Shown: piece by piece, positions 14,468 to 54,432 of the stretch
Numbering within the stretch: position 1 is the first letter of the stretch
How the letters are laid out: the number at the start of each line of letters is the position of its first letter
Assembly (NCBI RefSeq): GCF_014643735.1
Contig: NZ_BMKA01000006.1
Span: 1-64,000, forward strand
Length of the DNA: 64,000 nt
Source of the DNA: Neptunicoccus cionae
GTDB lineage: Bacteria > Pseudomonadota > Alphaproteobacteria > Rhodobacterales > Rhodobacteraceae
Reading direction: 5' to 3'
Notes under the pieces: model-generated
Database searches by the model: none
What the model saw: only the letters and a program-made list of their open reading frames with translations
What the model was told of the DNA's origin: nothing
Made by a program: the position numbers and the translations under genes

Positions 14468-15418
14468 TTATTTAACAGCCCTCTGGTCAATCTTGTTCAT
14501 ACGCTGGCGAAAGTGACGGTGGAGTCCGGCAATACGCAGCCAGCGAGTCAGTTTTTCGCAATAAAAATTTGTCGCCCCGTAACGGCGGTGGCGAAATGCC
14601 CAGACGTGGGACTTGTTGCGTAAGGCAAGCAGGAAGCGTTCCATCACGCCAAGTTCGACGGGTGGCATTTCGGGAAGATATCCGCGCGCTTGCATCATTG
14701 CACCGGCCCTGTGTTCCAATATGGCAATATCTCTCGGGTCAGCTTTGTGACGCCATTGCTGGACAAGTGTGTGATCCGGAGCCGAATACGTGGTCCCGTG
14801 GTAGTAATCCATCATCTGCGGATCATAAGAAAGCCCGAGGAAATTACAGATGTCCCGAAGCTGGTTTTCAGGATCGGAAAGAAGCGTTTCATATTTCAAT
14901 GTGAAGACGGGCGGGGGGGATGTTTCGCTCTCTACGACATTCCATGCGGTTTCGGTGTGTAGCCAATGTTCCACCCCGTGATAGGTTGTACCTGCCCAAC
15001 CCATGACAATTGAGGACCGTGCCACATCGCGGGGATCGCGCATCAGGTGGATCAGCGGTGCATGCGGCAGGATGGCAATAATCCGATCCACATGACGGTG
15101 GATATTGATCGACAGAATTTTTTCGGAGTGTTGGCCTTTAAGTTCGTCCAGAAAAGCCTCTAGCAGGTCCAGCCCGTCCAGCCCGGGCAACAGGGTCATG
15201 CCATGAACTTGAAAAATCCGGTTCAGCGTGAGCGCCGCCAGATCATAGCGCCAGCCGGTTGGATGGGTCGGGTCGGGGTGCAGATGGTCAAACAGAAAAT
15301 CCATTTCACCAGGATTGGCAATTTCGGGATGGGCGTTCAGCATCAACCGGAACACCGTTGTGCCTGACCGCAGTGCGCCATACACGAACACAATGTCGCG
15401 GGTTGTCAAAGTATTCAT
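14468..15418 (-). CDS. Sulfotransferase family protein
   Basis: The 316-residue protein has the 5'-phosphosulfate loop near the N-terminus (VYGALRSGTTVFRLMLNAHP, with RSGTT) and the 3'-phosphate-binding segment HLMRDPRDVARSSIVMGWAG. LKYETLLSDPENQLRDICNFLGL follows, as is usual in PAPS-dependent sulfotransferases. No signal peptide or TM, so it acts in the cytoplasm on a sugar or lipid-linked intermediate. It lies between the EPS operon and the RTX/glycosidase gene. The acceptor is unknown; sulfation of the polymer is the likely role. Confidence 0.88.
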   Translation of the reverse strand: MNTLTTRDIVFVYGALRSGTTVFRLMLNAHPEIANPGEMDFLFDHLHPDPTHPTGWRYDLAALTLNRIFQVHGMTLLPGLDGLDLLEAFLDELKGQHSEKILSINIHRHVDRIIAILPHAPLIHLMRDPRDVARSSIVMGWAGTTYHGVEHWLHTETAWNVVESETSPPPVFTLKYETLLSDPENQLRDICNFLGLSYDPQMMDYYHGTTYSAPDHTLVQQWRHKADPRDIAILEHRAGAMMQARGYLPEMPPVELGVMERFLLALRNKSHVWAFRHRRYGATNFYCEKLTRWLRIAGLHRHFRQRMNKIDQRAVK

Positions 15419-19872: not shown

Positions 19873-21489
19873 TTAAAGCTCTGGGACAAAACGGGGCATC
19901 ACGGTGGTAAGCTCGAGGAAGGTGTCTTGCAGACGCGCCTCTGCTTGGGCATCTGTTTCGTCTTTGGTAATCGGGGTCGTCAAACGCACGAGCGCGCCGT
20001 CAGTCCGGCCAATCGTCAACCCGTCCCAAAGAAGATACATTTTGGCCGCCAGATCCCAGGCCACGTGGCGGCCGTGCTGTTCAAACCAGTAATAGACCAG
20101 CATTCGGGATTCGCCCTTTTGGATCACCGCGCGGTTTAAATTGTAAGTCTCGGAAAACCCGACTTGGGGGGCGACATCGACCCGTTCCAACCATGCGATC
20201 TCCCAGCCCGCACCCGGCAGGCAGATTTCAGGCGAATGGGTGCCATTTCGGGTCTGATCGTCATACCAAGCAATGAACAGTCCCACTTGTGCTGCGGCAT
20301 CAGAACGGGAGAGCTGGACCGCGAGGTAGTCATCTGCTGCCAATACCTGCGCGACATTTTCAGTTAGAACCTCGGGGATACCGACATTCCATGGGCCCAG
20401 AGTTGTCGGGAACAGCAAAAATGGTTCGCGGTCGACCGGGCCGGTGTCTATCTGCGGGCGGACCTGCCAGCTTATCGTTGCCAGCGACAGTAGGACGGCT
20501 GACAAAATGAGGGCCTTTGACGGCTCGATCAAGCGGATGCGGGTCGCCTGCGTCACCCAGCCGGAGGTGTCCAGATCCAGCGCATCCAGAAGCGGCATTT
20601 TCTCAGCCGTGAACCGCAGCATGACCCAGGCAAGAAGAAACAGGATCACCACGCAAATCATAAAGATGACCCAGCCTTCAAAGAAATGGCTGAAGCCTTC
20701 GAGGTATTCCAGCCCCAGATAGTTCACCAGCCAGCCAGCAAAGGCGATGCGCACTGAGTTCATCACAATTGTGATCGGTGCGGCCGCCAGAAGCAGGACG
20801 GCTTTATGCCAGATGGAACCGCGAAACAGCACTGCAAAAATGTAAGAGAACGACATGATGGGGAACAGATATCGCAGGCCGGAGCAGGCTTCGGCCACGT
20901 GCAATTTGTAAACCCCGAGATCAATGATATTGCCTTCAAGGAAGACAGGCACATTGATCAGTTGCAACATCCAGACGCCAAGTTCCGATGACCAGGCTTG
21001 CAAGATGGTGGACATCTTATAATAAATGACCCCCGGCAACGGCAGCATGAAGACAAGATGCACCACCGGTGGCCAAAACTGCTTGCCCTGTTGCCAACCC
21101 CAAGAGATGAGCAACATCGCACCCACCCAGAGGATCAGCGCATAAGCTACGATATCGTCAATCTGGGCCTGCTTGCCCACGGCCCCGACGAGCAGGGCAA
21201 ATACCAGCAACGCGATACCGGCGCCCCGGTCGGCAACAGGATCGGAGGTGACGGGGACATCTTTAAGCTGACGTAAAAAGAGCAACAGGGACAACACCGG
21301 AATCAGAGGTCCATGGCTGTACTCGGGGAGTTCCCAAGCGGTTAACAGCGCGGCAACGCCCTCTTGGAAATACAACAGCGCGGCAAGTGTTGCGATTGCC
21401 AGCCAGAAGGTGCCAGCGTGGAAATACCCATTCAGAGCGGAAAACGTTCTTGGTTTATGGATCGCGGGCATCTTTGAAACACTCGTCAA
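19873..21489 (-). CDS. xrtD: Exosortase with fused EpsI-like domain (VPLPA-CTERM type, XrtD-like)
   Basis: A 538-residue polytopic membrane protein. The exosortase core (about 25-290) shows the catalytic triad: Cys202 in VAEACSGLRYL, Arg247 in MNSVRIAF and His268 in GFSHFFEGW. After the last TM segments, residues ~340-538 form an EpsI-like periplasmic domain (AWYDDQTRNGTHSPEICLPGAGW). A core fused to EpsI is the layout of the exosortase specific for VPLPA-CTERM proteins. It would cut the sorting tail and pass the substrate to the outer surface or matrix. The probable substrate gene lies 48 bases upstream in the same direction. The symbol rests on architecture and neighbour. Confidence 0.88.
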   Translation of the reverse strand: MTSVSKMPAIHKPRTFSALNGYFHAGTFWLAIATLAALLYFQEGVAALLTAWELPEYSHGPLIPVLSLLLFLRQLKDVPVTSDPVADRGAGIALLVFALLVGAVGKQAQIDDIVAYALILWVGAMLLISWGWQQGKQFWPPVVHLVFMLPLPGVIYYKMSTILQAWSSELGVWMLQLINVPVFLEGNIIDLGVYKLHVAEACSGLRYLFPIMSFSYIFAVLFRGSIWHKAVLLLAAAPITIVMNSVRIAFAGWLVNYLGLEYLEGFSHFFEGWVIFMICVVILFLLAWVMLRFTAEKMPLLDALDLDTSGWVTQATRIRLIEPSKALILSAVLLSLATISWQVRPQIDTGPVDREPFLLFPTTLGPWNVGIPEVLTENVAQVLAADDYLAVQLSRSDAAAQVGLFIAWYDDQTRNGTHSPEICLPGAGWEIAWLERVDVAPQVGFSETYNLNRAVIQKGESRMLVYYWFEQHGRHVAWDLAAKMYLLWDGLTIGRTDGALVRLTTPITKDETDAQAEARLQDTFLELTTVMPRFVPEL

Positions 21490-21537
21490 GATAACGCCGG
21501 GCCAGCTATGAATTGGGGCCGGAGAGAAACGGGCGCA

Positions 21538-22200
21538 TTACGCCCGTTTGCGACGCCGTGCAAAACCCAAGGCTCCAAGTGCGCCGAGCAGAAGCATGCC
21601 GCCTGCGGGCAGTGGTACAACTGCCGGAACAGCATCAGCCGAACGGACTGTTATGTTCGCAATGGCAAAGCTGGAATGCTTGAACTTGTCCTTCTTTTTA
21701 AGAAAGGAGTCTATGGCTGAAACATCAAACCTGTTTGAGGTGTAATCGTCTGTGAACGTATAGGTTTCCACAACGTCACCTGTCAGTGCATCAAGGCCGC
21801 TCGTTGAAAAGCCGAAGTCGTCGCGCTTGATGAACTTAGTGAATGTGATGCTTTCAATGGTGACATCGGTGTCAAAGTTAAAGACAACCGTTTCTTCAGC
21901 GCCTTTGGAGTCAATTTTGGCGGAATTGTCTTTTTTGCCAGATTTCACGCCTAAACCGAAATTCTTAGTCAATACTTTGGAGCTGGACGTGACATCTTTG
22001 GGGTTGGTCTTAATGGCGCTAACCGTCAAGCCAATGTCGCCCTGTGTGAAATCGAGCATCTTCGCCCGTTTCATCTTTTCGGCAGTGAAGTCAAAGGTAA
22101 CGCTGGCGGCCCCGGCCGTTACCGTCGAAAGAGCCATTCCAAGCCCTAAGGCCAAAGCTCCGTTAGTCAGGTTCTTCAAATTCAATTCAAAACTCCACAT
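21538..22200 (-). CDS. VPLPA-CTERM sorting-domain protein (probable exosortase substrate)
   Basis: A 220-residue secreted protein with an N-terminal signal peptide (ending near TAGAAS) and a C-terminal sorting tail: VPLPAGG at residues 195-201, a hydrophobic helix (MLLLGALGALGF), then a basic cluster ARRRKRA. Between them is a beta-rich part with many Thr, Ser, Asp and Lys and only weak family resemblance. The tail is the recognition signal of exosortases. The gene lies directly before the exosortase gene in the same direction. ATG 22200 has a GAAAG site. It is divergent from the adenylation-fusion gene, across a 404-base control region. Confidence 0.88.
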   Translation of the reverse strand: MWSFELNLKNLTNGALALGLGMALSTVTAGAASVTFDFTAEKMKRAKMLDFTQGDIGLTVSAIKTNPKDVTSSSKVLTKNFGLGVKSGKKDNSAKIDSKGAEETVVFNFDTDVTIESITFTKFIKRDDFGFSTSGLDALTGDVVETYTFTDDYTSNRFDVSAIDSFLKKKDKFKHSSFAIANITVRSADAVPAVVPLPAGGMLLLGALGALGFARRRKRA

Positions 22201-22458: not shown

Positions 22459-22538
22459 TGCCGTAAGGTAGCCAATTTTGCTGATAAGAGCGCGGAAACA
22501 ACTTCTGGAACTTTCTTTGGTTACTGTGTAATCGAAAT

Positions 22539-22553
22539 CTGTAAATTTCACAG
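22539..22553. promoter_or_regulatory. Short palindrome CTGTAAATTTCACAG (possible operator)
   Basis: A 15-base palindrome with one mismatched pair, about 50 bases upstream of the fusion-gene ATG. It resembles GntR- or CRP/FNR-like sites in shape, but it is short enough to occur by chance. Confidence 0.25.
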
Positions 22554-22604
22554 AGATGCGCCTGCTGTGCTGGCATCTTCCGGTATTACAAGGCCATTGA
22601 ACAG

Positions 22605-25394
22605 ATGACGATTGCACAAACTGTCCCCTCTCAGAACCAGACCTGGCGTGCCTGGCATGATTTTGCAGCGATGGCCAAAGCCCATCCGGGCCGGCCGGCC
22701 CTTCGGGTGGACGGAGTGCGGTACAGCTACGGCCAACTGGCGGAGATGGTCAGTGGTTTTGCCGGTGCGATCCGCGCTGCCACATCAGCAGAACAAGCGC
22801 CGGTCACGGGGTTTTTTGCGGATCGAAGTGTCCAGTCCTATGTCGCGGTGTTGGCAGCGCTGCGCTGTGGCCATGCCTATGTGCCACTGAACCCGAAATT
22901 TCCTGACAGCCGCAATCGTCTGATACTTGAACGTTCGGGTGCGTCCTGTCTGATCGCCTCGCCGCGGGCGCAAGGACGCGGCAAAGCAATTCTGACGACC
23001 GAGACGGATATGACGACACAAGCAGGGGGCGGTGGCGCTCCGGCTCTGATTACTGTGGCGGATATGGTGCCGGAGCCTTTGGAACCGGCACCGCATGACA
23101 ACGGCTATGCCTATGTTCTGTTCACCTCGGGCAGCACCGGCACTCCGAAAGGGGTTGCGATCCGGCATTCCAATCTGGAGGCCTATCTGGAAGCGACGTT
23201 CGCTGCGGTGCCTTACAGTGCAGAAGACCGCTTTTCACAGAACTTCGATCTGACCTTCGATCTGTCGGTGCATGACATGTTCTGTTGCTGGCGCGCGGGC
23301 GGCGAACTGGTTGTTCCGAGCGTGGCGGATCTGGATGATCCGGCGGCTTATGTAAAACGGGAGGGCGTTACGGCGTGGTTCTCGGTGCCTTCTCTGGCGC
23401 AGAAGATCGCTCTACGGGGTAATCTGGACCGTGAAACTCTGGCCGGTTTGCGGATTTCCCTGTTCTGCGGCGAGGCTTTGCCGATGGAACTGGCGCAGAA
23501 CTGGCAGGCGGCAACGGGGCAGGGCGTGGAAAATTGGTACGGCCCGACGGAGGCGACCATTGCCTGCACCCGTTATGTGCTGCCCGCTGCGGGTGCGCCT
23601 GTATCCGAACGTTTTGGTCTCGCCCCGATCGGGCAGGCGCTGCCTGGAATGAAGACTCTTATCTTGCGCGAAGACGGCAGTGCGGCGCCGGTGGGGGACA
23701 CCGGCGAATTGCTGGTATCAGGGCCACAATTGGCGGATGGTTATCTGGCGGACCCTGAAAAAACCGCAGCCGCTTTTGTGGACCTGCCAGAGTTTGGCGG
23801 GCGTTATTATCGCACAGGGGACCGTGTTCTTGCTGATGAAACCGGCGCGATTTTCTTTGTGGACCGGATCGACAACCAGATTAAGATCCGGGGCTATCGT
23901 GTTGAATTGGGTGAAATAGAGGCCGAAATCCGCAATCGCGTAGACGGGTGTTCTGTCGTCGTGACACCGCTGCCGCTGAAATCCGCCACTCCGACAGCGC
24001 TGCTGGCCAGTGTCGAAGGCTGGACAGGGGATACCCGCGCGGTGCTGGAGGATCTCAAACGCGCCTTGCCCGATTATATGGTGCCCACAGACCTGCGCAG
24101 TCTGGGACAGTTCCCTAAGAATGCCAGCGGCAAGATTGATCGCGGGGCCATTGGCGCATTGGTGACAACCAATCCCGCCGCGGCCGCTTCGGGCCAGCCA
24201 AAACGGGTGCGCAAGCAGGTGATCGAACTGGTTCAGGCCATCAATCCGGCCATCTCCCGCGAGCGGATACTGGAGGCTCCGGATCTGATGGAGGCGGGGC
24301 TGGATTCCCTTGCCTTTACCGAATTTACCCTCGCGCTGGAAAAAACCTTCGGCATTGCGCTGAACCAGATGCTGGTGGCGCGGATGTCCGAAATGTCGAT
24401 CCAGAACCTTGTGCCACTGATCAAGCGCCGGATGGAAAACACCCCGATGGCGAAGAGGGGGCCGAAGGGTAAAGCTGGCAACAGCAAAGGTGGTAAAGGA
24501 AGAGGTAAGGGCGCACAGGATTTGAAAAAGACCGTCCACTACCGGGCCCGCCGTGCCGTGGAATGCGTGGACAAGTTTCCCGATTTTGTCGCGGCAGCGC
24601 CCCATCCCCTTGCCCTGTTTATCGGGTCTTCGGGGATGATGTCAGGGGCCGTGGCGCCGGTGATTGAGGCGCGGGCTGCCGAACTGGGGATGCCGGTGAC
24701 GGCGGCCAATCTTGGCACCGGAAAGCTGTCCAACGCGGGGACCACGGAGCTGGCGGAATTTGTCCGTGACACCCTGCGCGCTGCCGGAAAGCCTTTGGCC
24801 TTTGTGATCTACGAAGTGGAGCTGATGCAGATGTCTTCCCTGCCGTCAGGTCGGGAAATCGAGGTGGTAAAAGACTATCTTGACGGGGGCTATGAGGTAG
24901 GTGATCTGCCAAGCCTTGATCCCAATAATATCTGGGATCCGGCAACCGGAGGGACCATTGGTTTGAAGGAGGGGAAGACTCTTTCCGATCCCGAAGGTGT
25001 CAGTGCAAGCGAACCGGACTGGATGAAGAAACGGGCCACAGAAGTGATGGAAACGTATCTGGGGAAGACAGAAATGGTGCCCGCCGAGGCGGATATTTTC
25101 CTGCGTGGTGTCGCTGCAATGAAAGAGATTTGCGACACGGTGATCGGCTTTGTCCATCCGTTGAATGCAGAAGGCATCGCAGAGGCCCGCGCAGCCAATC
25201 CAAACAACAGGTTTGATCCTTTCATCAGGGATCTGGAAACCCGTGGCGGTTTTGACATCCTGCCTCATACGGATTTCGTTCTGGCCGCTGAAGATTACCG
25301 CGACAAGAACCACGTCAATAAAGCGCGCGGTGCTGCTAGTCTGTCACGCCTGTTGGCTGAGGCCGGTGTTAAAGCCTTGAACATCAAAGGTTAA
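22605..25394 (+). CDS. Adenylation-carrier-SGNH fusion (DltA/DltC/DltD-like)
   Basis: A 929-residue, soluble, three-part protein. (i) Residues 15-520: amino-acid adenylation domain, with VLFTSGSTGTPKGVA (171-185), FDLSVHDMF (218-226), FCGEALP (287-293), NWYGPTEATIA (310-320), YYRTGDR (401-407) and NASGKIDRG with the catalytic Lys510. FDLSV and FCGE with Cys288 resemble D-alanine ligase DltA. (ii) 535-608: carrier domain, with GLDSL carrying phosphopantetheine Ser568. (iii) after a Lys/Gly-rich linker (613-640), 645-929: SGNH/DltD-like domain, with GSSG (674-677) and D900-x-x-H903. It probably activates a small amino acid, loads it on the carrier and transfers or releases it. The target is unknown, perhaps the glycan or matrix. 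No separate dltB-like MBOAT gene is in the window. Confidence 0.85.
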   Translation: MTIAQTVPSQNQTWRAWHDFAAMAKAHPGRPALRVDGVRYSYGQLAEMVSGFAGAIRAATSAEQAPVTGFFADRSVQSYVAVLAALRCGHAYVPLNPKFPDSRNRLILERSGASCLIASPRAQGRGKAILTTETDMTTQAGGGGAPALITVADMVPEPLEPAPHDNGYAYVLFTSGSTGTPKGVAIRHSNLEAYLEATFAAVPYSAEDRFSQNFDLTFDLSVHDMFCCWRAGGELVVPSVADLDDPAAYVKREGVTAWFSVPSLAQKIALRGNLDRETLAGLRISLFCGEALPMELAQNWQAATGQGVENWYGPTEATIACTRYVLPAAGAPVSERFGLAPIGQALPGMKTLILREDGSAAPVGDTGELLVSGPQLADGYLADPEKTAAAFVDLPEFGGRYYRTGDRVLADETGAIFFVDRIDNQIKIRGYRVELGEIEAEIRNRVDGCSVVVTPLPLKSATPTALLASVEGWTGDTRAVLEDLKRALPDYMVPTDLRSLGQFPKNASGKIDRGAIGALVTTNPAAAASGQPKRVRKQVIELVQAINPAISRERILEAPDLMEAGLDSLAFTEFTLALEKTFGIALNQMLVARMSEMSIQNLVPLIKRRMENTPMAKRGPKGKAGNSKGGKGRGKGAQDLKKTVHYRARRAVECVDKFPDFVAAAPHPLALFIGSSGMMSGAVAPVIEARAAELGMPVTAANLGTGKLSNAGTTELAEFVRDTLRAAGKPLAFVIYEVELMQMSSLPSGREIEVVKDYLDGGYEVGDLPSLDPNNIWDPATGGTIGLKEGKTLSDPEGVSASEPDWMKKRATEVMETYLGKTEMVPAEADIFLRGVAAMKEICDTVIGFVHPLNAEGIAEARAANPNNRFDPFIRDLETRGGFDILPHTDFVLAAEDYRDKNHVNKARGAASLSRLLAEAGVKALNIKG

Positions 25395-32230: not shown

Positions 32231-33139
32231 TTACTTCGTGTAACCCATCTTTTTGGCCAGCGGGAAATTGATCCGCTCGGCCATTTTGCGGTAGCGGGCA
32301 TTTTCCTCGGATTTCCAGCTTTCTGAGGGTTTGATCTGGATGTGTGTGGCGCGTTTTTCCAGCACTTCCTCGTTTGCGGGGGGGAAGAGGTGGTTGCGCT
32401 CCCAGGAGATATCCGCCTCGGCATCGGAGGTGAAAAACGGGGTGGCCACCTGCAATCCGGCCCAGGACTGGATGTCCTCGATGGTTTTGCGCGGGGCGGT
32501 GGCCAGTGTTTCATAATGCAGTTGCAGGAAGGGGGCATCGCTGCCTTGTTGAAACGCCTCCATCCGGCGCACGCGGTTGTTCCAGTTGCGCGCCCGCTGT
32601 TGCAGGGTCTCTTTCTTCTGCACCCGTTTGGCCCAGCTGGCATTCACCGCACGGGGATCGCGCAGCAGGTTCAGCGTATAAAGCGAGATTTCGGGGATCA
32701 GGCTGAGGGACAGCGCCACATCAGGGGCTTTGGAACTGTCGATCAGCGCGGCGCCGCCCGCTTGCCGTGCGGCAGTTGCATAGAGATCGCCAAGCAGGCT
32801 CAGATACTCTGCATTTTCCTGCCGGATCAGATCCCGCACGGCGGCGTCTTCCCAGCCGCTGTTCTGCGTGGCCGAGGTTTTGAACGCGGGCGCGCCGGTT
32901 TTCAAACGCTCGAACACATCTTCGCCATGCCGGTCTGTCATTTCTGCGGCCACCGGCCCCCAATAGGCGCACTCCTGTATCGGCTGATGGCAGGCACAGG
33001 TCTCATTGCGTTTCAGGGCAAGAGGCAGGTGGCGGATCTGCCCGAGGTTGAAGCAATCGTCGTTCTGGGACAGCAACTGGGACAGGAAGGTGCTGCCGGA
33101 CCGGCCGGCCCCTGCGATATAGACAACTTTGGTAGACAT
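32231..33139 (-). CDS. Sulfotransferase family protein
   Basis: A 302-residue protein with the 5'-phosphosulfate loop at the very start (YIAGAGRSGSTFLSQLLSQ), the 3'-phosphate segment LLRDPRAVNASWAKR, and the late LHYETLATAPRKTIEDIQSWAGL, as in PAPS-dependent sulfotransferases. It is cytoplasmic with no TM. It lies 39 bases after the KpsM-like permease gene in the same direction, so it probably modifies the capsular chain before export. It starts at ATG 33139. Confidence 0.85.
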   Translation of the reverse strand: MSTKVVYIAGAGRSGSTFLSQLLSQNDDCFNLGQIRHLPLALKRNETCACHQPIQECAYWGPVAAEMTDRHGEDVFERLKTGAPAFKTSATQNSGWEDAAVRDLIRQENAEYLSLLGDLYATAARQAGGAALIDSSKAPDVALSLSLIPEISLYTLNLLRDPRAVNASWAKRVQKKETLQQRARNWNNRVRRMEAFQQGSDAPFLQLHYETLATAPRKTIEDIQSWAGLQVATPFFTSDAEADISWERNHLFPPANEEVLEKRATHIQIKPSESWKSEENARYRKMAERINFPLAKKMGYTK

Positions 33140-33178: not shown

Positions 33179-33988
33179 TTACAGGTTCAACAGATCACGG
33201 TGATACCGGTTCAATAACAACAGGCCGAGCGCCAGCGTGATCAGTCCGAAGCATAGCACATAGGGGATCGAGACATAGCTTGCCTCATACGTGGGGTAAA
33301 AACCGCGCCGCATTAAACCAGTAATATGGGCGACAGGGTTGAACCACAGGATATCGCGGAACTGTGAAGGAATATCCTCCATTATGAAGAAGATACAGGA
33401 CAGGATGAACATCGGCGTGGTGATAATACTCCAGAGAGTGCCCCACATGGGAAACCGCGTGATCAGATAGCAGTTCAGACAGCCCACCCCAAGCCCCAGC
33501 AACGCGGCCAGCGCAAAAGCGGTGATGATGGTGGGCAGGTCGAGAATGGTTTCAATGCGAAACAGCATGATAATCAGCGAGAACAGCAGATAGGACACGG
33601 CGATCTGGGTTATGACGTTCAACAAGAACCGCGCAATAATGGCGTCCGTATAGCGCACGCCCGGATAGCGCAGCAGCGGTTTGGAGAAGCTCAGCGCATT
33701 GGACAGTTTGCTTGACAGCTGCATATAAAGCTGGAAGGGCATCATCGCGCTGGCATAAAACAGCCCGAAACTGGTCCCGAGCGAGGGGCTGCGCAGGGCG
33801 GCGGAAAACACGAAGGTCATCAGGGTGATCGCGGCCACAGGCTCCATCACCGCCCAGAAATACCCCCCCGGCGTGCGCCCGTAGGTGGTCGACATTTCGC
33901 GCAGGATCAGCGCCACAATGGTGCGTGGCGTTTTCAGCCGGCGGGGCTTGAGCGGTGCGGCTGGTGCAGGGATTTCGCTGGAGGACAT
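33179..33988 (-). CDS. kpsM: ABC-type capsule export permease (KpsM-like)
   Basis: From ATG 33988 (MSSSEIPAPAAPLK) the product has 269 residues and about six TM segments, as for the ABC-2 polysaccharide export permease KpsM. Conserved parts include ALILREMSTTYGRTPGGYFWAVMEP before TM1, YASAMMPFQLYMQLSSKLSNAL, and IPSQFRDILWFNPVAHITGLMRRGFYP before the last segments. With the KpsT-like ATPase it moves lipid-linked polysaccharide across the inner membrane. A longer start at 34102 would abut the divergent KpsE start and leave no promoter, so I prefer 33988. It is divergent from kpsE and followed by a sulfotransferase. Confidence 0.87.
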   Translation of the reverse strand: MSSSEIPAPAAPLKPRRLKTPRTIVALILREMSTTYGRTPGGYFWAVMEPVAAITLMTFVFSAALRSPSLGTSFGLFYASAMMPFQLYMQLSSKLSNALSFSKPLLRYPGVRYTDAIIARFLLNVITQIAVSYLLFSLIIMLFRIETILDLPTIITAFALAALLGLGVGCLNCYLITRFPMWGTLWSIITTPMFILSCIFFIMEDIPSQFRDILWFNPVAHITGLMRRGFYPTYEASYVSIPYVLCFGLITLALGLLLLNRYHRDLLNL

Positions 33989-34102
33989 GGCGCGGGGATA
34001 TATTCCATCAGGGCAGGGCTTGGGGCGGAATTCGTACTTGGGTTTATGGCCAAGCACAGGTAAACAATCAAACATAAATTTACGCGGGCGCGAGGGCGGC
34101 AT

Positions 34103-35407
34103 TTGGAAGATCGGGACAACAGGGGTGCAGAGGCTGACGATGCATCACAGGATGATCAGAACGCAGACGATCAAAACGGGGGCGGGAATAACAAACCCAA
34201 GAAACAACGGCGCCAGATCAAGAAACTGAAGCAGGAACTGCGCGAGGTGCAAAAGGCACCACCGACCGTGGTGGTGGCCGATGTGGCCCCGCGCGCAAAA
34301 ATGAAGAAACGCCACTACGGGGTTCTTCTGATCTTTCTGTTTTTCGTTGTACTGCCTTCGGCAGGGGTCTTCTGGTATCTTCAGGAACGGGCGGCGGATC
34401 AATACGCCTCGCGGATCGGTTTTGTGGTGCATACCGAAGACACCAGCGCTGTGACCGATGTGCTGGGCGGGGCGATCCAGCTGGGCAGCGGTGGCTCCAA
34501 GGACACGGATATCCTTTATGAATTCATCCGCAGCCAGCAGCTGGTGTCTCTGGTGGATCAGAAATTGGACCTGCGCGCGCTCTATTCCAAGCCACAGAAT
34601 GATCCCATTTTCTCTTTTCAGCAGGATGGCACGATCGAGGACCTTCTGGACTACTGGTCCAGCATGGTGCGGGTTTATTACGATGTGGACACCCAATTGA
34701 TCGAATTGCGGGTGCAGGCGTTTGATCCTGATGATGCCTATAACATCGCGCAGGAGATTTTCGCCCAGAGCACCGTGCTGATCAACCGGCTGTCCGCTGT
34801 GGCGCGGGAAGACACGCTGCGCTATGCCCGCGAAGAACTGCAAACTGTCGAAGACCAGTTGAAAGCGGCCCGTCAGGCGCTGACACGGTTCCGCAACGAA
34901 ACCCAGATCGTCGATCCTTCGGCGGATGTGCAGGGGCAGATGGGGCTGTTGAACACGCTGCAGGCGCAACTGGCGGCAGCTTTGATTGATCAGGACATCC
35001 TGCGCGACACCACGCGGGACAATGATCCCCGTATGGTGCAGGCCGCGCGCAAGATCGAGGTGATCCGCAAACGGATTGCCGAAGAGCGCCAGACCTTTGG
35101 TCTGAGCGGCGACGGCGGCGGCAGTAATTCCGAAGAATTCAACGAGTTGCTGGCCCAGTTTGAAGCACTGACTGTGGATCGTGAATTTGCCGAGAAAGCC
35201 TGGCTCGCGGCCCGTTCCGCCTATGACGGCGCGGTGATCGAAGCCAATCGCCAAAGCCGCTATCTCGCGGCTTATGTGGGGCCGACCCGTGCAGAAAAGG
35301 CGCAATATCCCGAACGGATCATGCTCTGGATCATGACGACACTGGTGCTGTTCCTGGCCTGGTCGATCCTGACCCTGATCGGCTATTCCATCAAAGACCG
35401 CAGGTAG
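34103..35407 (+). CDS. kpsE: Capsule export inner-membrane protein (KpsE/BexC-like)
   Basis: A 434-residue membrane-periplasmic protein starting at TTG 34103 with GAGGG upstream. The N-terminal ~65 residues are polar and charged (DDQNADDQNGGGNNKPKKQRR). TM1 lies at about 72-92 (LIFLFFVVLPSAGVFWYL), a large periplasmic part carries coiled coils (about 235-300), and TM2 is near 408-428 before KDRR. This is the KpsE-type polysaccharide co-polymerase, bridging the ABC exporter to the outer-membrane Wza/KpsD-type protein. It lies 6 bases upstream of kpsT in an operon. Confidence 0.87.
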   Translation: MEDRDNRGAEADDASQDDQNADDQNGGGNNKPKKQRRQIKKLKQELREVQKAPPTVVVADVAPRAKMKKRHYGVLLIFLFFVVLPSAGVFWYLQERAADQYASRIGFVVHTEDTSAVTDVLGGAIQLGSGGSKDTDILYEFIRSQQLVSLVDQKLDLRALYSKPQNDPIFSFQQDGTIEDLLDYWSSMVRVYYDVDTQLIELRVQAFDPDDAYNIAQEIFAQSTVLINRLSAVAREDTLRYAREELQTVEDQLKAARQALTRFRNETQIVDPSADVQGQMGLLNTLQAQLAAALIDQDILRDTTRDNDPRMVQAARKIEVIRKRIAEERQTFGLSGDGGGSNSEEFNELLAQFEALTVDREFAEKAWLAARSAYDGAVIEANRQSRYLAAYVGPTRAEKAQYPERIMLWIMTTLVLFLAWSILTLIGYSIKDRR

Positions 35408-35413
35408 GTCCCG

Positions 35414-36088
35414 ATGATCCGACTGGAGGGGCTGAATAAAACCTTCATCATGCGGGGCCGCCGCAAGGTGATTGCAAACGATATGAACATCGTTTTTCCC
35501 AAGGGCGTGTCTGTGGCGCTGCTCGGTCGCAACGGGGCGGGGAAATCCTCGCTGCTGGCGATGATCTCGGGGTTTCTGGCGCCCGATAGCGGCAAGATCC
35601 ACATAGAGGGCAGCCTGAGCTGGCCGGTGGGGTTTGCCGGCAGTTTCCACAAGGATCTGACCGGCGCCCAGAACATCCGCTTTATTGCGCGGGTCTACGG
35701 TGTGGATACGGACGGGCTGATCGATTTCGTGCGGGACTTTGCCGAACTCGGGCCCCATTTTGATCTGCCGGTACGGACCTATTCCTCGGGGATGAAATCG
35801 CGCCTGTCGTTCGGGGTCTCTATGGGGGTGCGGTTTGACACCTATCTGGTGGATGAGGTCACAGCCGTTGGCGATGCGGACTTCAAAAAGAAAAGCCGCG
35901 CGGTGTTTATGGAACGGATGAACGCCAGTGGTTCGATTTTTGTCACCCACTCCATGGGCGGTGTGCGTAATTTCTGCGAGGCGGCGGCGGTGCTCGAAAA
36001 AGGCAAGCTGACCTATTACGACGATGTGGAAGAAGGCATTGCGGCCCATCAGGAGAACATGGGCGGTGATGAGGATGACGACGATTAG
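35414..36088 (+). CDS. kpsT: ABC-type capsule export ATPase (KpsT-like)
   Basis: A 224-residue ATPase. Walker A is GRNGAGKSSLL (about 38-48), the ABC signature is YSSGMKSRLSFGV (about 118-130, with SSGM in place of LSGGQ as usual in this branch), Walker B is DTYLVDEVTAVGD, and the switch His is in FVTHSM. FAGSFHKDLTGAQNIRFIARVYG is the family-specific segment. It powers export of capsular polysaccharide through the KpsM-like permease. The C-terminus is acidic (GGDEDDDD). Confidence 0.93.
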   Translation: MIRLEGLNKTFIMRGRRKVIANDMNIVFPKGVSVALLGRNGAGKSSLLAMISGFLAPDSGKIHIEGSLSWPVGFAGSFHKDLTGAQNIRFIARVYGVDTDGLIDFVRDFAELGPHFDLPVRTYSSGMKSRLSFGVSMGVRFDTYLVDEVTAVGDADFKKKSRAVFMERMNASGSIFVTHSMGGVRNFCEAAAVLEKGKLTYYDDVEEGIAAHQENMGGDEDDDD

Positions 36089-44900: not shown

Positions 44901-46415
44901 ATGTCAGATTCCAAATTTGACACCCCCATCGGGGTTGTCGTTCATATCGGCGCAGGGACAGGGCAATCCCTCAAGGAGCTCGTAGCGGAGCGTCCGGACC
45001 ATATTATGTTGATAGAACCTCATCCTGAAACTGTTGCTCGGTTGCACGAGGCAGTGAAAGAGGCAAAGAGGAATACCTCCGATCTTTCCATAGAGGTCAT
45101 TAATGCGGCAGTAAGCCAGCAGACGGGCCAGTCTCCATTTTATATGCTGAATTTCACTGACCTTAGCAGTTTATGTCAGCCCACCGCTCTGACTGATTTG
45201 ATGCAAGGAGTGCGTGTTGAGCAAACCATGCCGGTTAAGACCCTAAGGCTTGCGGATATGTTGGAAAATGTGACTTTCCAAAACGGCAAACGCCACCGCT
45301 TAATCCTGGAAGCTCCAGGTATGGAGATGGCAATTCTCAAGGATTGTGCGGCAACGGGGTTGTTTGACCGCTTCGAGGACATCCATGTTTCTGTGGGTAT
45401 CGAAACCTATTTCGACGGGGCTGCTGACAGCCAACATGTATTGGAATTCCTGTTCGAGACAGGATATGTTTTACTAGCGCAGGATGAAACTGCGGACCCA
45501 GACTGGCCACATTTTTCGCTGCATCGTAATCCAGTGTCTGCGAAGTTGAGCGAAGTTGTCAAAACCCATGAAATTGAAAAAGAAAAACTGCAGAAGCAAC
45601 TGTCAGAGGCAACGCAGGTCGGTCAGAATGCTGAGGAAGCGCTGAAAGAGCAAGCTACTGCGGCTGAAGCTGAGAAAAAGAGATCTCAGGAACAACTGGC
45701 GCAGGCCACGCAGGAACGGGATTTTGCAAGACAACAAACCAAGGATGTGGAACGCATACTTAAGGAGCGCAATGCAAAGGCTGAGGCAGAACTTGCCAAA
45801 ACCTATGAGCACGAACAGCAGAGCTTGCAGAAGCAACTTGAACAGGCGCTCACAGAGCAAAAAACTCTATCTGAAAAGTTATCAAGCTTAGAGCAGGAGC
45901 AGAAAACAAAGCTGGCAGATGGGGCAGTGGCCTTGGCTGCGTCAGAAGCTTCTTTCGGGGTTTTGCGGGCTAAATTGGAAGCCGCCGAAACCTTACGAGC
46001 GGAGGCTGAAGACAAAGCAACCCGTGCGTACAATGAACAGGTCACTGCTGAACGGGAAGGGAAGCGGGAACTGGCCATGGCCTTGCGTTTACAAACACTA
46101 CAACAGCAGGACCTTGCCGAATTGCAGCAGCGCTATGCCGCCGCGCAGGTGGAGTCCCGTAAACAGGAAGATCTGCTGATCAAGCTGACCCAGAAACTGG
46201 GGAGTGCAGCAGGGTATTTGCATGGCTTGACTGACGATAGTCCTACACCGGAGCGGATTTCCCAACCAGCTCCCCGAAAGAATACGCCAAAAAAGCGGGC
46301 TCCCGCTAAAGTGTCAGGTGAAGCTGCTGCCACCTCCCAAAAGACGACAACAGCTAAAACCAAAACGAAGGCCGCGGCAAAGCCAGCATTACGAAAGAAA
46401 AGCGGTAGTACATGA
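44901..46415 (+). CDS. FkbM-like methyltransferase domain with coiled coil and Lys/Ala-rich tail
   Basis: A 504-residue protein. Residues ~10-210 look like an FkbM-type SAM-dependent methyltransferase: VVVHIGAGTGQSLKEL (motif I), LIEPHPETVARL, VINAAVSQQTG, VKTLRLADML and LEAPGMEMAILKD, the last two being FkbM marks in altered form. From about 215 to 445 it is an uninterrupted coiled coil. The last ~50 residues are Lys/Ala/Thr-rich (KKRAPAKVSGEAAATSQ), histone-H1-like. It overlaps the next gene by 4 bases. It may methylate a glycan; the coiled coil suggests assembly with the preceding protein. Confidence 0.7.
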   Translation: MSDSKFDTPIGVVVHIGAGTGQSLKELVAERPDHIMLIEPHPETVARLHEAVKEAKRNTSDLSIEVINAAVSQQTGQSPFYMLNFTDLSSLCQPTALTDLMQGVRVEQTMPVKTLRLADMLENVTFQNGKRHRLILEAPGMEMAILKDCAATGLFDRFEDIHVSVGIETYFDGAADSQHVLEFLFETGYVLLAQDETADPDWPHFSLHRNPVSAKLSEVVKTHEIEKEKLQKQLSEATQVGQNAEEALKEQATAAEAEKKRSQEQLAQATQERDFARQQTKDVERILKERNAKAEAELAKTYEHEQQSLQKQLEQALTEQKTLSEKLSSLEQEQKTKLADGAVALAASEASFGVLRAKLEAAETLRAEAEDKATRAYNEQVTAEREGKRELAMALRLQTLQQQDLAELQQRYAAAQVESRKQEDLLIKLTQKLGSAAGYLHGLTDDSPTPERISQPAPRKNTPKKRAPAKVSGEAAATSQKTTTAKTKTKAAAKPALRKKSGST

Positions 46416-47338
46416 CCGGAACTTCTGTGAATAACACCGCTTTGTTGGGTGCTATCGAAGAAGCGCTTGATCTGCTGGAAACCCGTGACAGGCACCAAAA
46501 CCGTCAGGCATTGGTTGTTGAACCCCTTCCAAGCTTGTTGGAGCAATGTGAACGGATGCGGGACCAGATTGCTGCGCGGCCCAAAGCGCCCGTTCGTCTA
46601 GTCCATCATTTCGCCTGCACCGGGGGCACACTGTTTTCAAAGTGTCTGGCGGCTGTACCAAACACTCGTTTGCTCAGCGAAATTGATCCGCTTAGTCCGA
46701 TTACGACCCATCAGTTTGCCCCCACAGATTTGATCCGCCATCTGACCCACGATTTGCGCGGGGCTGATCCGGAACTGCTTATAGATATCTTTCTGTCTGG
46801 AACAGTTGCCTTGTATGATTGGTGTGAGAGCCGCGGCCAGCGGTTAATCCTGCGCGATCATAGCCATTCGCATTTTTGCACAGGGGCCGGGCAAATTCCG
46901 CAACGCCCGACACTGCGCGAGATAGTAACCCGTCGCTTGCCTGCCCTGTCGGTATTGACAGTGCGCCACCCGATGGAGTCCTATCTTGCATTAGCAGAAA
47001 AAAAGTGGTTTCACTTCGCACCCACAACACTTGAGGAATACGCCCGTCGCTATCTGGTGTTTCTGGACTGCTATTCTGATGCCCCGTCGTACCGCTACGA
47101 AGATATGGTTGAAGATCCCCATGAGCTTTTCAAACAGATATGTGACAGTCTGGACCTACCTTTTTCCGAAAATATTTTTGACATTTTCCCCGTCATCTCC
47201 TTGACGGGAGACAGTGGACGGCAAGGCGGGCTGATTGCGCCCCGTGCGCGTCGAGATGTGCCTGCGAATGTTGCTGCTCAAGCCGAAGCAAGCTCTTCTT
47301 ATGCCCGATTGTGTTCCAGGATGGGTTATAATCCCTAA
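46412..47338 (+). CDS. Sulfotransferase-like protein
   Basis: A 308-residue protein. HHFACTGGTLFSKCL (about 64-78) fits the 5'-phosphosulfate loop, and LSVLTVRHPMESYLALAEK the 3'-phosphate site. YRYEDMVEDPHELFKQICDSLDL follows, as in other sulfotransferases. The first 60 residues are helical and polar. The gene overlaps its neighbours by 4 bases upstream and 1 base downstream, so it belongs to a tight operon for glycan building. The acceptor is unknown. Confidence 0.75.
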   Translation: MTGTSVNNTALLGAIEEALDLLETRDRHQNRQALVVEPLPSLLEQCERMRDQIAARPKAPVRLVHHFACTGGTLFSKCLAAVPNTRLLSEIDPLSPITTHQFAPTDLIRHLTHDLRGADPELLIDIFLSGTVALYDWCESRGQRLILRDHSHSHFCTGAGQIPQRPTLREIVTRRLPALSVLTVRHPMESYLALAEKKWFHFAPTTLEEYARRYLVFLDCYSDAPSYRYEDMVEDPHELFKQICDSLDLPFSENIFDIFPVISLTGDSGRQGGLIAPRARRDVPANVAAQAEASSSYARLCSRMGYNP

Positions 47339-50877: not shown

Positions 50878-53800
50878 TTAGCTCTGTTGACGCGCGTACT
50901 CCGCGAATTGCTTGTACATATTTAATTTGCGCTCTTGATAGAGTGCGTCACATATTTCTGCGCATTTAGTAAATTCACCTGCGTTAAACAACGCATGGGC
51001 TTGGGTGATAGACAGATCAGTAGGGTCGACCCGGACCTCTTTAGCCCCAAAAGACGATACTGGTTCTGGATTGATTGCAGCAGCCGGTCTTGTAACAGGG
51101 CCGCCACCAAACAGACTGGAGTAATCCACTCGCTCAAACACCTCTAGTTTGCCACCGACGGTCGCATTGTAGATGGTGCGGCCAACTGCAGAATAAGCCA
51201 GATCAGCCATTTTGTAGTTCATCAAAACCCGTTCCAGTTTGGGATCTTTCCAAGTTTTGCCTTTGCCGAAATAATCCTTGTGGAAGTGGTTCGGATCATC
51301 GGTTGTAGAGAGAATATTATCACCGTTTCTTTTATGACTTTCAGGAATAACATAATCGAAATCCATTCCGATCAGGTAAACCTCGGTAAAGCCCATGAAA
51401 AACGCCAGTTGCAGGTTGATATAGGTTACGGATTGCCCACAATACAGCACCTTGCTGGCGTCAGTTGAAAACCGGGGTACAGCATAATTAGGGGAAGTCT
51501 TTTCGTAAAACCCCCGGTTCATTTCAAAAAAGAATGTGTTGGGGGTCTTCGGGTGCAGTTTGCTATAAATTGTAGGGAAGAACTTGTAAGGTGCTTCATA
51601 TGCAACAATTTCTCCGATATTTTCTTTCATAACAGAGCTGTCCTCAACCACAAAGAACGTAGGGCGAAAGCCGTTTTCACGCGTCTTGTAATAGATTGAA
51701 TTTACAGCAAAACTATATTCACCTTCCAGTAGCGATAGATCATGTTGATTTAATGAGGGGCCGTTTCCAACGATGAAACAGCGCTGGCCCTGAAACCGAT
51801 TGTGGAATCGCGCAAGTTCATCTCCATCAGGAGGAGGGGTGTTGCCATAGAGTTCTTGCTTGGGGTAAGAACCCAAATCTTTAAAATTAGGTGGGAATAT
51901 TAGATCCTCAGAAAGGTTTTCCACCCGGGCTGGGGATTTTATTCCGTTGATTGGTAATTTTTTATCACTACGATATAGGTCCAAATCTCCATAGCTCTGT
52001 GTGCGTTCAAGCATCATGGCCAGTGTTTTTTCTTTTCCCACATGATTGCACTGGCCGTGTACATAGTCAGTTGGACCAATATCCTTAGCGACACGACAGC
52101 CAAAATTTTCCCGCAAGTGGCGAAACAGTTCTGGTGCATGTGGGCGTGGCTCACCACCAACTGAATGATGTAAATGCACGTATGTAAACGGTGATTGCAC
52201 TATACTTTCAGGAGGGAGATGATTGAGGACAGTAACGTCCAAGGCGCGATCTTCCCCTGCGTATTCAATATACTGTTCAAACCCTTTTAAAGAATTATAA
52301 ATATCGCGGCGTATGATCACGATACCCCCCGTAAGTGTGGTAGGTTTTTGGATGTTTGGCGTTGATATAACCTCGACGGCTTTTTCACTGCGTATCTGTT
52401 TGGTTTCAGTGGGCGAAGAATAATGTATATACGTATAGGGTGATACCAAACTTTTACCGTTATAGCACCGCAAAATATCTGTTAGAAAATTTTCACCTGG
52501 CAATACGTCAGAGTCCATTAGGCAGACGACGTCAGTTTTACAGAAGTGGCGCACAGAGGCGTTATATGCCCACCCACGATTAAAGGGCTTAGGATTAAAG
52601 ATAAACTCGTGCCGAACTCGAGAGGGCATAAGATGAGACACATCGGCCCATTTAGAATTCAAGTCTTGTTCAATAATTAGAAGATCGATCAGGTTTCCAT
52701 AGCATCGATCTAACCAGTTTACGACAACTGCAAGATTCTCTATCCGGTCAGGTTCATTGGCCTTGATCTTAATCGCAATAATTGCGGTGGCAATGGGGTC
52801 TGTTGGTCCGACATCAGCTAGAGCTCGCGCTTCCATTGCCCGCTGCGACGACACCGGCTTTGCGTCTACGATAGGAAACTCCAAGCTTGGGATTACCTGC
52901 GTTGAAGGGAACAAAGACGTTAAAAAATCCGCGTTAAAAAATTCCGTTATTTTCGAAATAGGACTAAGGTTGATAACTTCCGCCCCTTGCTTCCGAGCGT
53001 AGTCGGCACTTTTTTTCCAAGCATTCTGATGTGTTTGTGAGCGTGGTAACGAATAAAGGTCACCTTTACGCTGATATCCTTCAAAGAAGTAATTTGGATT
53101 TTTGGTAGGGGAGTGTTCAATAACTCGAATAGTTTCAAAAAAGAGTCCAGTCGGTCCCTTCTCAAGGGCAAGAGCCCCTTTCATTTCGCTGCGTAGGCTG
53201 TCTAGATCGAGCTCGTTATATTCTTCTGCTGTGATTGGCCGCGATCCTACAACTTCTTCAGTATAAGAGCCTTCCATTCCAATCATGTATATTTTTTTAT
53301 ACCCAAAGTTAACAGCTTTGCGTAACAGAAAATCTCCAGTAGAGCCGTGAGGTACTTTGATCTGCCGCTTAATGGGAGATACCTTTAAAGAGAAATAGAA
53401 GAAATCAGTTGGAATTGATGGATCTTCAGATATTCGCCTGAGTTCTTGTGCGTGGGATTTCACAACCTTCGCATCGCACCAAGCGTAATATTTTGGCCAC
53501 CATTTTAACTCTTGGAACAACCGATAGGCAGCGCCGCATCCGAAAGTGTCGATATTTCTTGGTAGATTTTCAAAACCACGTTCAAGTAGAATTTTAGATG
53601 ATGGTCCATTCCCGATTAATAAGATTGCTTTATCAGGCTTATTAGCATCGAATAAATCGTTAAAGATGAGATTACTGATTTGATCATATACATAATTACT
53701 CCCCGTTTCGGTGAGATGAATATTATCGCAGGTGAAGTTTTTGATCTGATCATTGTCCCACGCGCGCAAATCTACAACTGACATACCTGCCTGCCCCAAC

Positions 53801-54432
53801 TCTTCTGCGAATAGATCGGAATATTGATGTGTAATATCAATGTTTCTGGGACGGCCTCGTTTGAAATCCCCTTCCCAATCTGGAACAAAACGGTTGGCGG
53901 AAACGAAGATCAGGTTGTTAATTTTTTTCAGCCTTGGCAACAGATCTCTGCGCGCCATTTCGATACTGTACATATTATTGGTTTTTTCCCCTTCGTATTC
54001 TTGCTCAAAAGGGGTGTCAAAATGGTCTTTTAAAGCCTCGGCACCAAAAACCTTATCAAAGATCTTTTTCTTGTTGTTCACGATCTTTTTTGAATAATCT
54101 CGCGTATTTAGAGCCAAGTTATCCGCATTTTGCGGTTTCGGGTTATTGTATAGATCGTTGATTGCACTTGATGCGGGGCGCGGGGACCATTCGACAATGC
54201 CTGTGTATAGAATGACATGGTCATATTGTTTGAGTTCATTTTCTGAAAAAGTTTCCAAAAAATCCAGCGTTGTTGTCCACTTCATCGGGCATAGATAAAG
54301 ATCAACGTCCAAACGCGGATCAGCAGCCAACCGTTCTGCAAAAAGCTCGTGAGAGGTTCCGGCAGGTTTATGCTGGCCACGGCTATCCGTAAAAATAAGG
54401 ACACGTTTTTTCTGCAGTTTTTGGTCGGACAT
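50878..54432 (-). CDS. Four-module glycan protein: SGNH, two MAF/DUF115-like domains and a GT2 domain
   Basis: An 1184-residue protein without TM. (i) Residues 8-260: SGNH-hydrolase-like, with FTDSRGQ (block I, Ser17) and CDNIHLTETG (Asp236, His239). (ii) 265-510: MAF/DUF115-like, with LLIGNGPSS (272-279) and KIYMIGMEGSY. (iii) about 560-800: GT2-like transferase, with IIAIKIKANEPDRIENL, LLIIEQD, NRGWAYNASVRHF and the metal site CLMDSDVLPGENF. (iv) about 884-1105: second MAF-like module (CFIVGNGPSLNQHDL, GFTEVYLIGMDFDY), followed by a linker and a TPR-like end. Base composition is visibly more AT-rich than the genes around it. It may make and attach or de-acylate a glycan; the substrate is unknown. 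Confidence 0.75.
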   Translation of the reverse strand: MSDQKLQKKRVLIFTDSRGQHKPAGTSHELFAERLAADPRLDVDLYLCPMKWTTTLDFLETFSENELKQYDHVILYTGIVEWSPRPASSAINDLYNNPKPQNADNLALNTRDYSKKIVNNKKKIFDKVFGAEALKDHFDTPFEQEYEGEKTNNMYSIEMARRDLLPRLKKINNLIFVSANRFVPDWEGDFKRGRPRNIDITHQYSDLFAEELGQAGMSVVDLRAWDNDQIKNFTCDNIHLTETGSNYVYDQISNLIFNDLFDANKPDKAILLIGNGPSSKILLERGFENLPRNIDTFGCGAAYRLFQELKWWPKYYAWCDAKVVKSHAQELRRISEDPSIPTDFFYFSLKVSPIKRQIKVPHGSTGDFLLRKAVNFGYKKIYMIGMEGSYTEEVVGSRPITAEEYNELDLDSLRSEMKGALALEKGPTGLFFETIRVIEHSPTKNPNYFFEGYQRKGDLYSLPRSQTHQNAWKKSADYARKQGAEVINLSPISKITEFFNADFLTSLFPSTQVIPSLEFPIVDAKPVSSQRAMEARALADVGPTDPIATAIIAIKIKANEPDRIENLAVVVNWLDRCYGNLIDLLIIEQDLNSKWADVSHLMPSRVRHEFIFNPKPFNRGWAYNASVRHFCKTDVVCLMDSDVLPGENFLTDILRCYNGKSLVSPYTYIHYSSPTETKQIRSEKAVEVISTPNIQKPTTLTGGIVIIRRDIYNSLKGFEQYIEYAGEDRALDVTVLNHLPPESIVQSPFTYVHLHHSVGGEPRPHAPELFRHLRENFGCRVAKDIGPTDYVHGQCNHVGKEKTLAMMLERTQSYGDLDLYRSDKKLPINGIKSPARVENLSEDLIFPPNFKDLGSYPKQELYGNTPPPDGDELARFHNRFQGQRCFIVGNGPSLNQHDLSLLEGEYSFAVNSIYYKTRENGFRPTFFVVEDSSVMKENIGEIVAYEAPYKFFPTIYSKLHPKTPNTFFFEMNRGFYEKTSPNYAVPRFSTDASKVLYCGQSVTYINLQLAFFMGFTEVYLIGMDFDYVIPESHKRNGDNILSTTDDPNHFHKDYFGKGKTWKDPKLERVLMNYKMADLAYSAVGRTIYNATVGGKLEVFERVDYSSLFGGGPVTRPAAAINPEPVSSFGAKEVRVDPTDLSITQAHALFNAGEFTKCAEICDALYQERKLNMYKQFAEYARQQS

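Follow-up and report, generated by a model that had tools for sequence, protein, structure and literature searches.

Two kinds of described system come closest to the one reported here: envelope aminoacylation, which in the known Dlt and Alm systems is carried out by separate proteins, and systems in which a sulfotransferase stands beside a carrier and a releasing enzyme. The CurM and OLS termini belong to the second kind; they are not known to contain an amino-acid adenylation domain, and their thioesterase is of another fold than SGNH. The sulfotransferase and thioesterase of CurM/OLS act on polyketide beta-hydroxyacyl substrates, according to the accessible part of PMC3903477. In the sulfazecin pair SulN/SulM, a sulfotransferase works with a nonribosomal peptide synthetase (NRPS) module whose last domain is a releasing one; this system has several modules, a 2,3-diaminopropionate substrate and a thioesterase with an active-site cysteine, and SulN sulfonates the tripeptide bound to the peptidyl carrier protein in trans, before the thioesterase acts (PMC11298585, available in part). 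The Dlt system (DltA, DltC and DltD, with DltB) uses adenylation, carrier and SGNH-fold parts, and DltD works outside the cell. The AlmEFG system, which glycylates lipid A in Vibrio cholerae, activates glycine in a Gram-negative bacterium by a DltA-like adenylation domain and has a transferase, AlmG, of LPLAT type rather than SGNH; the available excerpts of PMC3783018, which cover both systems, mention no sulfotransferase for it. Note that, in the accessible texts, the names AlmE and AlmF are swapped in this 2013 paper relative to PMC11253843 and PMC12930378.

In this work, we focus on a gene of Neptunicoccus cionae at positions 22605 to 25394 of a 64,000-nucleotide stretch of contig NZ_BMKA01000006.1 ("the window" means this whole stretch). 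The gene joins adenylation (A), thiolation (T) and SGNH domains in one chain, and its strongest partner is a sulfotransferase, SulfB, which an earlier model-made note on this DNA (the original prediction) had missed. The sulfotransferase partnership is the new element: a partner that is nearly constant points to an undescribed decoration of some cell molecule. The literature that was searched, in which subscription journals and preprints are thinly covered, contained no description of this system that we recognised.

The reading frame of the A-T-SGNH protein (P0001; 22605..25394, + strand, as are all of its parts) encodes 929 residues without interruption. The adenylation core (residues 22-381, 22668..23747) matches Pfam AMP-binding with 230 bits and contains the pocket residues D219, L220, H223, C288 and W311. 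It is followed by the adenylation C-terminal subdomain (about 446-519, 23940..24161) with Lys510, where AMP-binding_C (446-510) reaches 18.3 bits, below its cut-off of 24.5, and by a carrier, or thiolation, domain (about 530-605, 24192..24419) with the phosphopantetheine serine Ser568, where PP-binding (560-591) scores 25.5 bits, above its cut-off. A Lys/Gly-rich linker (about 606-644, 24420..24536), read from the sequence and variable in length across relatives, leads to the SGNH-fold domain (645-929, 24537..25391). The original prediction had proposed this fusion of three domains, and it is confirmed by Pfam for the adenylation and carrier domains and by structure modelling for the third; all of the residues it named are present.

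Conserved columns were counted in 36 rows, comprising the window protein and 35 relatives that share its architecture. D219 and K510, as well as G565, D567 and S568 of the carrier domain, are kept in 36/36 rows. We take D219 to be the Asp that binds the alpha-amine and K510 to be the A10 lysine, partly on the accessible text of PMC11253843 and partly on assumed motif roles. The protein passes the NCBIfam model for amino acid adenylation, TIGR01733 (338.9 bits; cut-off 317.4). PADLOC defence models match neither the A-T-SGNH protein nor SulfB nor the one SulfA protein submitted (SulfA is the second sulfotransferase, described below), and a defence role for the A-T-SGNH protein was rejected on this ground. 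As a separate observation, the RNA at 22500-22620, upstream of and over the start codon, is predicted to fold strongly (-38.2 kcal/mol, z -4.25, with 0/200 shuffles as low).

The C-terminal domain is recognised by neither Pfam nor PDB sequence searches, and Pfam finds no SGNH/GDSL family in any of the 35 members at E<=1. The SGNH assignment of the original prediction stands nonetheless in model searches: the predicted structure (pLDDT 90) has an SGNH fold by both Foldseek and VIA-align. The first three Foldseek matches are PatB, one of the SGNH O-acyltransferases, and DltD is among the first matches listed. PatB-type enzymes are exported and transfer acetyl groups; they are not known to have an adenylation or a carrier domain. 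The best VIA-align matches are esterases and thioesterases, including TesA-type thioesterases, and DltD is absent from the best 50 listed. The domain contains Ser675/Ser676 in a GSSG motif, N702/G704, E737, H851 and H903; both serines are invariant, and His903 is kept wherever a row covers the position.

Scanning GTDB genomes yielded 43 loci, 35 of them with a relative that shares the domain architecture (those of L018 and L033 are cut by contig ends); this number excludes L012, which lies on the contig of L006, L035, where the gene is split in two open reading frames (ORFs), and L040, which is cut at a contig end. The relatives range in identity to the window protein from 94% (Neptunicoccus sediminis) down to about 34%. 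Most of their hosts are Rhodobacterales and Gammaproteobacteria; the others are Burkholderiales, Rhodospirillales, Caulobacteraceae and one member of Verrucomicrobiales. The A-T-SGNH gene is rare: a profile of its SGNH domain matches 6 of 390 Rhodobacterales genomes, one match being a 53.6-bit fragment with an internal stop, and 2 of 369 Gammaproteobacteria genomes. Among plasmids, 1729 records match at E<=1e-20, and two of them (CP104103 and NZ_CP109794, both from Roseobacteraceae) cover 80% or more of the query at a single site, where it is annotated only as "non-ribosomal peptide synthetase". The split copy, in Thalassobium sp. R2A62 (L035, 9977-12671), consists of two overlapping ORFs in different frames, and a SulfB (389 bits) lies about 11 kb away from it.

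When the ORFs neighbouring the gene are clustered, sulfotransferase-type ORFs appear in 33 of the 43 loci (the cluster includes a few antisense ORFs), and no other cluster appears in more than 7. A smaller cluster, c4, occurs in L020, L022, L025, L027, L031 and L035, and the one from L027 belongs to Sulfotransfer_2. The SulfB of the window is a Sulfotransfer_3 protein of 302 residues (32231..33139, - strand) that stands 6.8 kb from the A-T-SGNH gene and scores 383.8 bits against our first SulfB hidden Markov model (HMM) and 50.9 bits against Pfam Sulfotransfer_3 (cut-off 27). Seven SulfA/SulfB members score 45 to 96 bits against Sulfotransfer_3. The GRSGS/T and RDPR motifs, which bind 3'-phosphoadenosine-5'-phosphosulfate (PAPS), are present in SulfA and SulfB.

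The first SulfB HMM held two wrong-frame rows (L005 and L030); for this reason a clean alignment, A5, is used for the genome searches, and the locus counts below are best-domain scores with A5 for SulfB and A4 for SulfA. SulfB reaches at least 300 bits in 28 of the 35 loci and 231 to 236 bits in three more (L016, L028 and L038), giving 31/35, a count that is partly true by construction because A5 contains, besides the window, rows from 15 loci; the other 16 of the 31 positive loci contributed none. Three of the remaining loci have SulfB elsewhere. In L001, only the end of SulfB lies at the locus edge (108 bits), while a whole SulfB (434 bits) stands 9.7 kb away in the genome; in L026, there is an edge fragment (69 bits) and a SulfB of 271 bits on another contig; and for L033, both SulfB (396 bits) and SulfA (590 bits) are encoded on other contigs of the genome. 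In all, 34 of the 35 relatives have SulfB at the locus or elsewhere in the genome, with L015 as the sole exception. In both plasmid copies, the adjacent gene is SulfB (441 and 371 bits). Five further loci have an adenylation domain only; neither SulfB nor SulfA was found there or in the 3 of their genomes that were searched. As an observation on SulfB itself, C48, C50 and C57 are invariant in 16/16 A5 rows, and this CxC...C pattern could bind a metal.

SulfA reaches at least 300 bits in 21 of the 35 loci and is truncated in L013. In most loci that have it, it lies upstream in the same direction, often overlapping the start of the gene; in L006 and L009 it lies downstream. In addition, SulfA is fused to the N-terminus of the A-T-SGNH protein in 6 loci, and SulfB is fused to SulfA in 3 Burkholderiales loci; in a tree of the 36 rows, each fusion type is confined to one supported clade.

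The co-occurrence of the genes was also examined genome-wide in the 390 Rhodobacterales and 369 Gammaproteobacteria genomes, by scoring 5 or 6 candidates per genome with chosen limits of E<=1e-40 for SulfB and 1e-30 for SulfA. SulfB is present in 5/390 and 2/369 genomes, respectively, and these are exactly the genomes with a full gene; the 385 and 367 genomes without SulfB contain the full gene in no case. Four of the five SulfB-positive Rhodobacterales genomes, including the sister species of the window, have SulfA at 362 bits or more, and four genomes without the gene have weaker SulfA matches (145 to 175 bits). In the sister species (L099, 9095-10084, - strand), SulfA lies on another contig than the gene, among housekeeping genes, between a Methyltransf_4 protein and EPSP synthase.

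The amino acid that the protein activates can be predicted from its adenylation pocket. Ten pocket positions were assigned by motif and by eye, without alignment to GrsA or DltA, in a GrsA numbering that we assume. The pocket reads DLHSLCWIAK in 27/36 rows; His223 and Trp311 are kept in 36/36, L220 in 30/36 and C288 in 32/36. By motif, the last two are the apparent counterparts of L198/C269 of DltA and L248/C316 of AlmE. In the accessible part of PMC11253843, L198 and C269 of DltA serve D-alanine, near the alpha carbon or methyl group, L248 and C316 of AlmE lie near the glycine carbon, and IdnL7, which accepts Gly, L-Ala and L-Ser, has C217, A285 and T318. PDB sequence matches include 6akd (261.7 bits), which is IdnL7 according to the same source, AlmE (4oxi, 231.5), module 2 of LgrA (220.2 for that domain) and DltA (3e7w, 216.8). 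Since the Leu after the Asp and the Cys match the AlmE/DltA pattern, glycine or D-alanine is predicted; most likely the substrate is a small amino acid, with glycine foremost and D-alanine next. The likeness to DltA that the original prediction had drawn appears to hold for the pocket and does not hold for the family, since the protein scores 271.5 bits against the DltA model TIGR01734, far below the cut-off of 559.85, and is therefore not classed as a DltA member even though its parts resemble those of Dlt and Alm. Unlike Dlt and Alm, the protein is one chain and has sulfotransferase partners. An MBOAT partner, whose absence the original prediction had remarked on, matched none of the 30 window proteins scanned with Pfam, a set that does not include every ORF.

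Our preferred explanation, which we hold tentatively and at somewhat less than an even chance, is that the protein acts in the cytosol as a one-chain transferase of glycyl or D-alanyl groups and shares one acceptor with a dedicated sulfotransferase. The adenylation domain would adenylate the small amino acid, the aminoacyl group would then move onto the phosphopantetheine at Ser568, and the SGNH domain, with Ser676 as the probable nucleophile and His903, would take it from the carrier and give it to a hydroxyl or amine of the acceptor. The same acceptor would be sulfated by SulfB and, in many lineages, also by SulfA, so that the product would bear sulfates as well as an amine. For some Rhodobacterales, a glycan is the probable acceptor; it would be assembled in the cytosol and leave the cell through an ABC transporter. 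In ABC-exporter islands, the polymer is finished inside the cell, so that no membrane MBOAT step would be needed. We infer the cytosolic location from the order of the domains: export of the SGNH domain would be surprising, since it follows the A and T domains in one chain. This explanation is the best fit for two reasons: neither glycine nor alanine has a hydroxyl in its side chain, and some relatives are located in ABC-exporter islands. A more specific and more doubtful version is a sulfo-aminoacylation system in which one chain would charge and transfer Gly or D-Ala, one or two dedicated PAPS sulfotransferases (fused to it in one clade) would add sulfate either to the same acceptor or to the group on the carrier, and the amine-plus-sulfate decoration would be made wholly in the cytosol by scattered Pseudomonadota and by a single relative from Verrucomicrobiota, where the searches found no sulfotransferase. 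If true, one chain with a sulfotransferase would be a new way to set amines beside sulfates, and it would give a function to proteins whose only labels in two plasmid records are "non-ribosomal peptide synthetase" and "sulfotransferase". The genetic unit is small and open to testing in non-pathogenic marine bacteria.

Several observations weigh against the preferred explanation. The L015 genome was searched, and neither SulfB nor SulfA was found. SulfA is optional, being present in only 2 of 9 genomes searched that have the gene (L033 and L026). The substrate is a pocket-code prediction. There is no conserved acceptor gene: in a Pfam tally of 123 neighbour proteins, hand-picked from 170 to drop redundant loci and with the sulfotransferase clusters left out, no family has more than 4 members (among the 25 largest of 141 families listed), and at five loci beyond the clade of the window, the ten neighbours scanned show no glycan theme. 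Of the GSSG and DxxH motifs named in the original prediction, the serines and His903 hold, whereas Asp900 is Asn in 13/36 rows, so that the complete triad cannot be a general feature. Nor does the fold tell transfer from hydrolysis: esterases and thioesterases give the best VIA-align matches, and the 50 listed do not include DltD. Finally, all seven SulfB-positive genomes in the genome-wide comparison were already in the initial GTDB scan and some supplied profile rows, so that this comparison informs mainly through its negatives.

The fusion of SulfA to the N-terminus of the A-T-SGNH protein in 6 loci also agrees with sulfonation on the carrier, in which SulfA and SulfB would act on the carrier-held aminoacyl group (or a later acyl group) and the SGNH domain would then release, cyclise or transfer the product. 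SulN/SulM, for monobactams, and the sulfotransferase-thioesterase pair of CurM/OLS are precedents as far as the available parts of PMC11298585 and PMC3903477 describe them. The best PDB matches of the SulfA and SulfB profiles are CurM (75 and 43 bits, respectively) and a cyanobacterial polyketide synthase sulfotransferase. As proof of carrier-bound sulfation, the likeness to CurM is not decisive and was set aside: a control sulfotransferase of the window, whose part in the system is doubtful (14468..15418, - strand, taken as 14471-15418 for the control; Sulfotransfer_3 97.3 bits; distantly similar to SulfA, with 55 bits to its HMM), also has CurM as its top PDB match (34.5 bits), so that the likeness is partly generic. 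Moreover, the predicted Gly/Ala substrates have no side-chain hydroxyl, and a condensation domain is absent from the Pfam matches of the protein. We regard sulfonation on the carrier as the main rival, though an unlikely one.

The lack of a condensation domain, together with the single module, argues likewise against a small NRPS-like enzyme that makes a diffusible sulfated metabolite, in which the SGNH domain would be an ordinary releasing thioesterase. The adenylation domain passes TIGR01733, both plasmid copies are annotated as non-ribosomal peptide synthetases, and TesA-type thioesterases are among the best VIA-align matches, all of which would suit such an enzyme. However, no recurrent transporter or other tailoring family is found among the scanned neighbours, and releasing its own amino acid by hydrolysis would serve no purpose unless that amino acid is acted on by something; on balance, such an enzyme seems distinctly improbable. 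Least of all do we expect an exosortase-linked modification of a VPLPA-CTERM protein or its glycan anchor. The gene order of the window suggests it, with XrtD (630 bits against a cut-off of 400) directly upstream of the gene together with the VPLPA-CTERM protein, but homologues of both stand beside the gene in only 1/35 loci, that of the sister species. The exosortase link of the original prediction is thus close to refuted as a general function. In the window, XrtD and an EpsI-type C-terminal domain share one ORF, which the VPLPA-CTERM protein adjoins (19873-22200).

Returning to the transferase working with SulfB on one acceptor, the glycan context is seen in a subset of loci. Next to SulfB in the window lies an ABC-2 type exporter permease (33179..34102, - strand; Pfam ABC2_membrane 45.4 bits), which may belong to the system and has homologues in 4/35 loci. 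It is followed by a 434-residue protein (34103..35407, + strand) without a Pfam match at E<=1e-4, which we take to be a KpsE-like polysaccharide-export component and which has homologues in 4/35 loci, and by an ABC exporter ATPase (35414..36088, + strand; ABC_tran 53.6 bits) with homologues in 5/35 loci, that of L022 being weak. In reading these counts, note that the flank of L001 as retrieved ends short of the exporter genes. Beyond the exporter genes of the window lie YjbF, YjbH and Poly_export proteins. The plasmid copy in CP104103 is surrounded by glf, glycosyltransferase and ABC-transporter genes, and that in NZ_CP109794 by rfbABCD, YjbH, YjbF and calcium-binding proteins. In L004, the gene lies with UDP-galactopyranose mutase and with a protein of weak similarity to galactofuranosyltransferase 2 (25.7 bits, slightly under the cut-off). 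Queries with the exporter permease, the 434-residue protein, the mutase and the glycosyltransferase match nothing at loci outside the clade of the window. The polysaccharide context that the original prediction had seen is therefore real for this subset, comprising the loci with ABC-exporter homologues and the two plasmid copies, and not general.

Two other genes of the window may be mentioned. A sulfotransferase-like protein (46412-47338) scores 27.8 bits against Sulfotransfer_3, whose cut-off is 27, and is flanked by FkbM-methyltransferase-like and GT10-like proteins; a protein of 1184 residues (50878-54432) contains an MptE-like domain at residues 872-1028.

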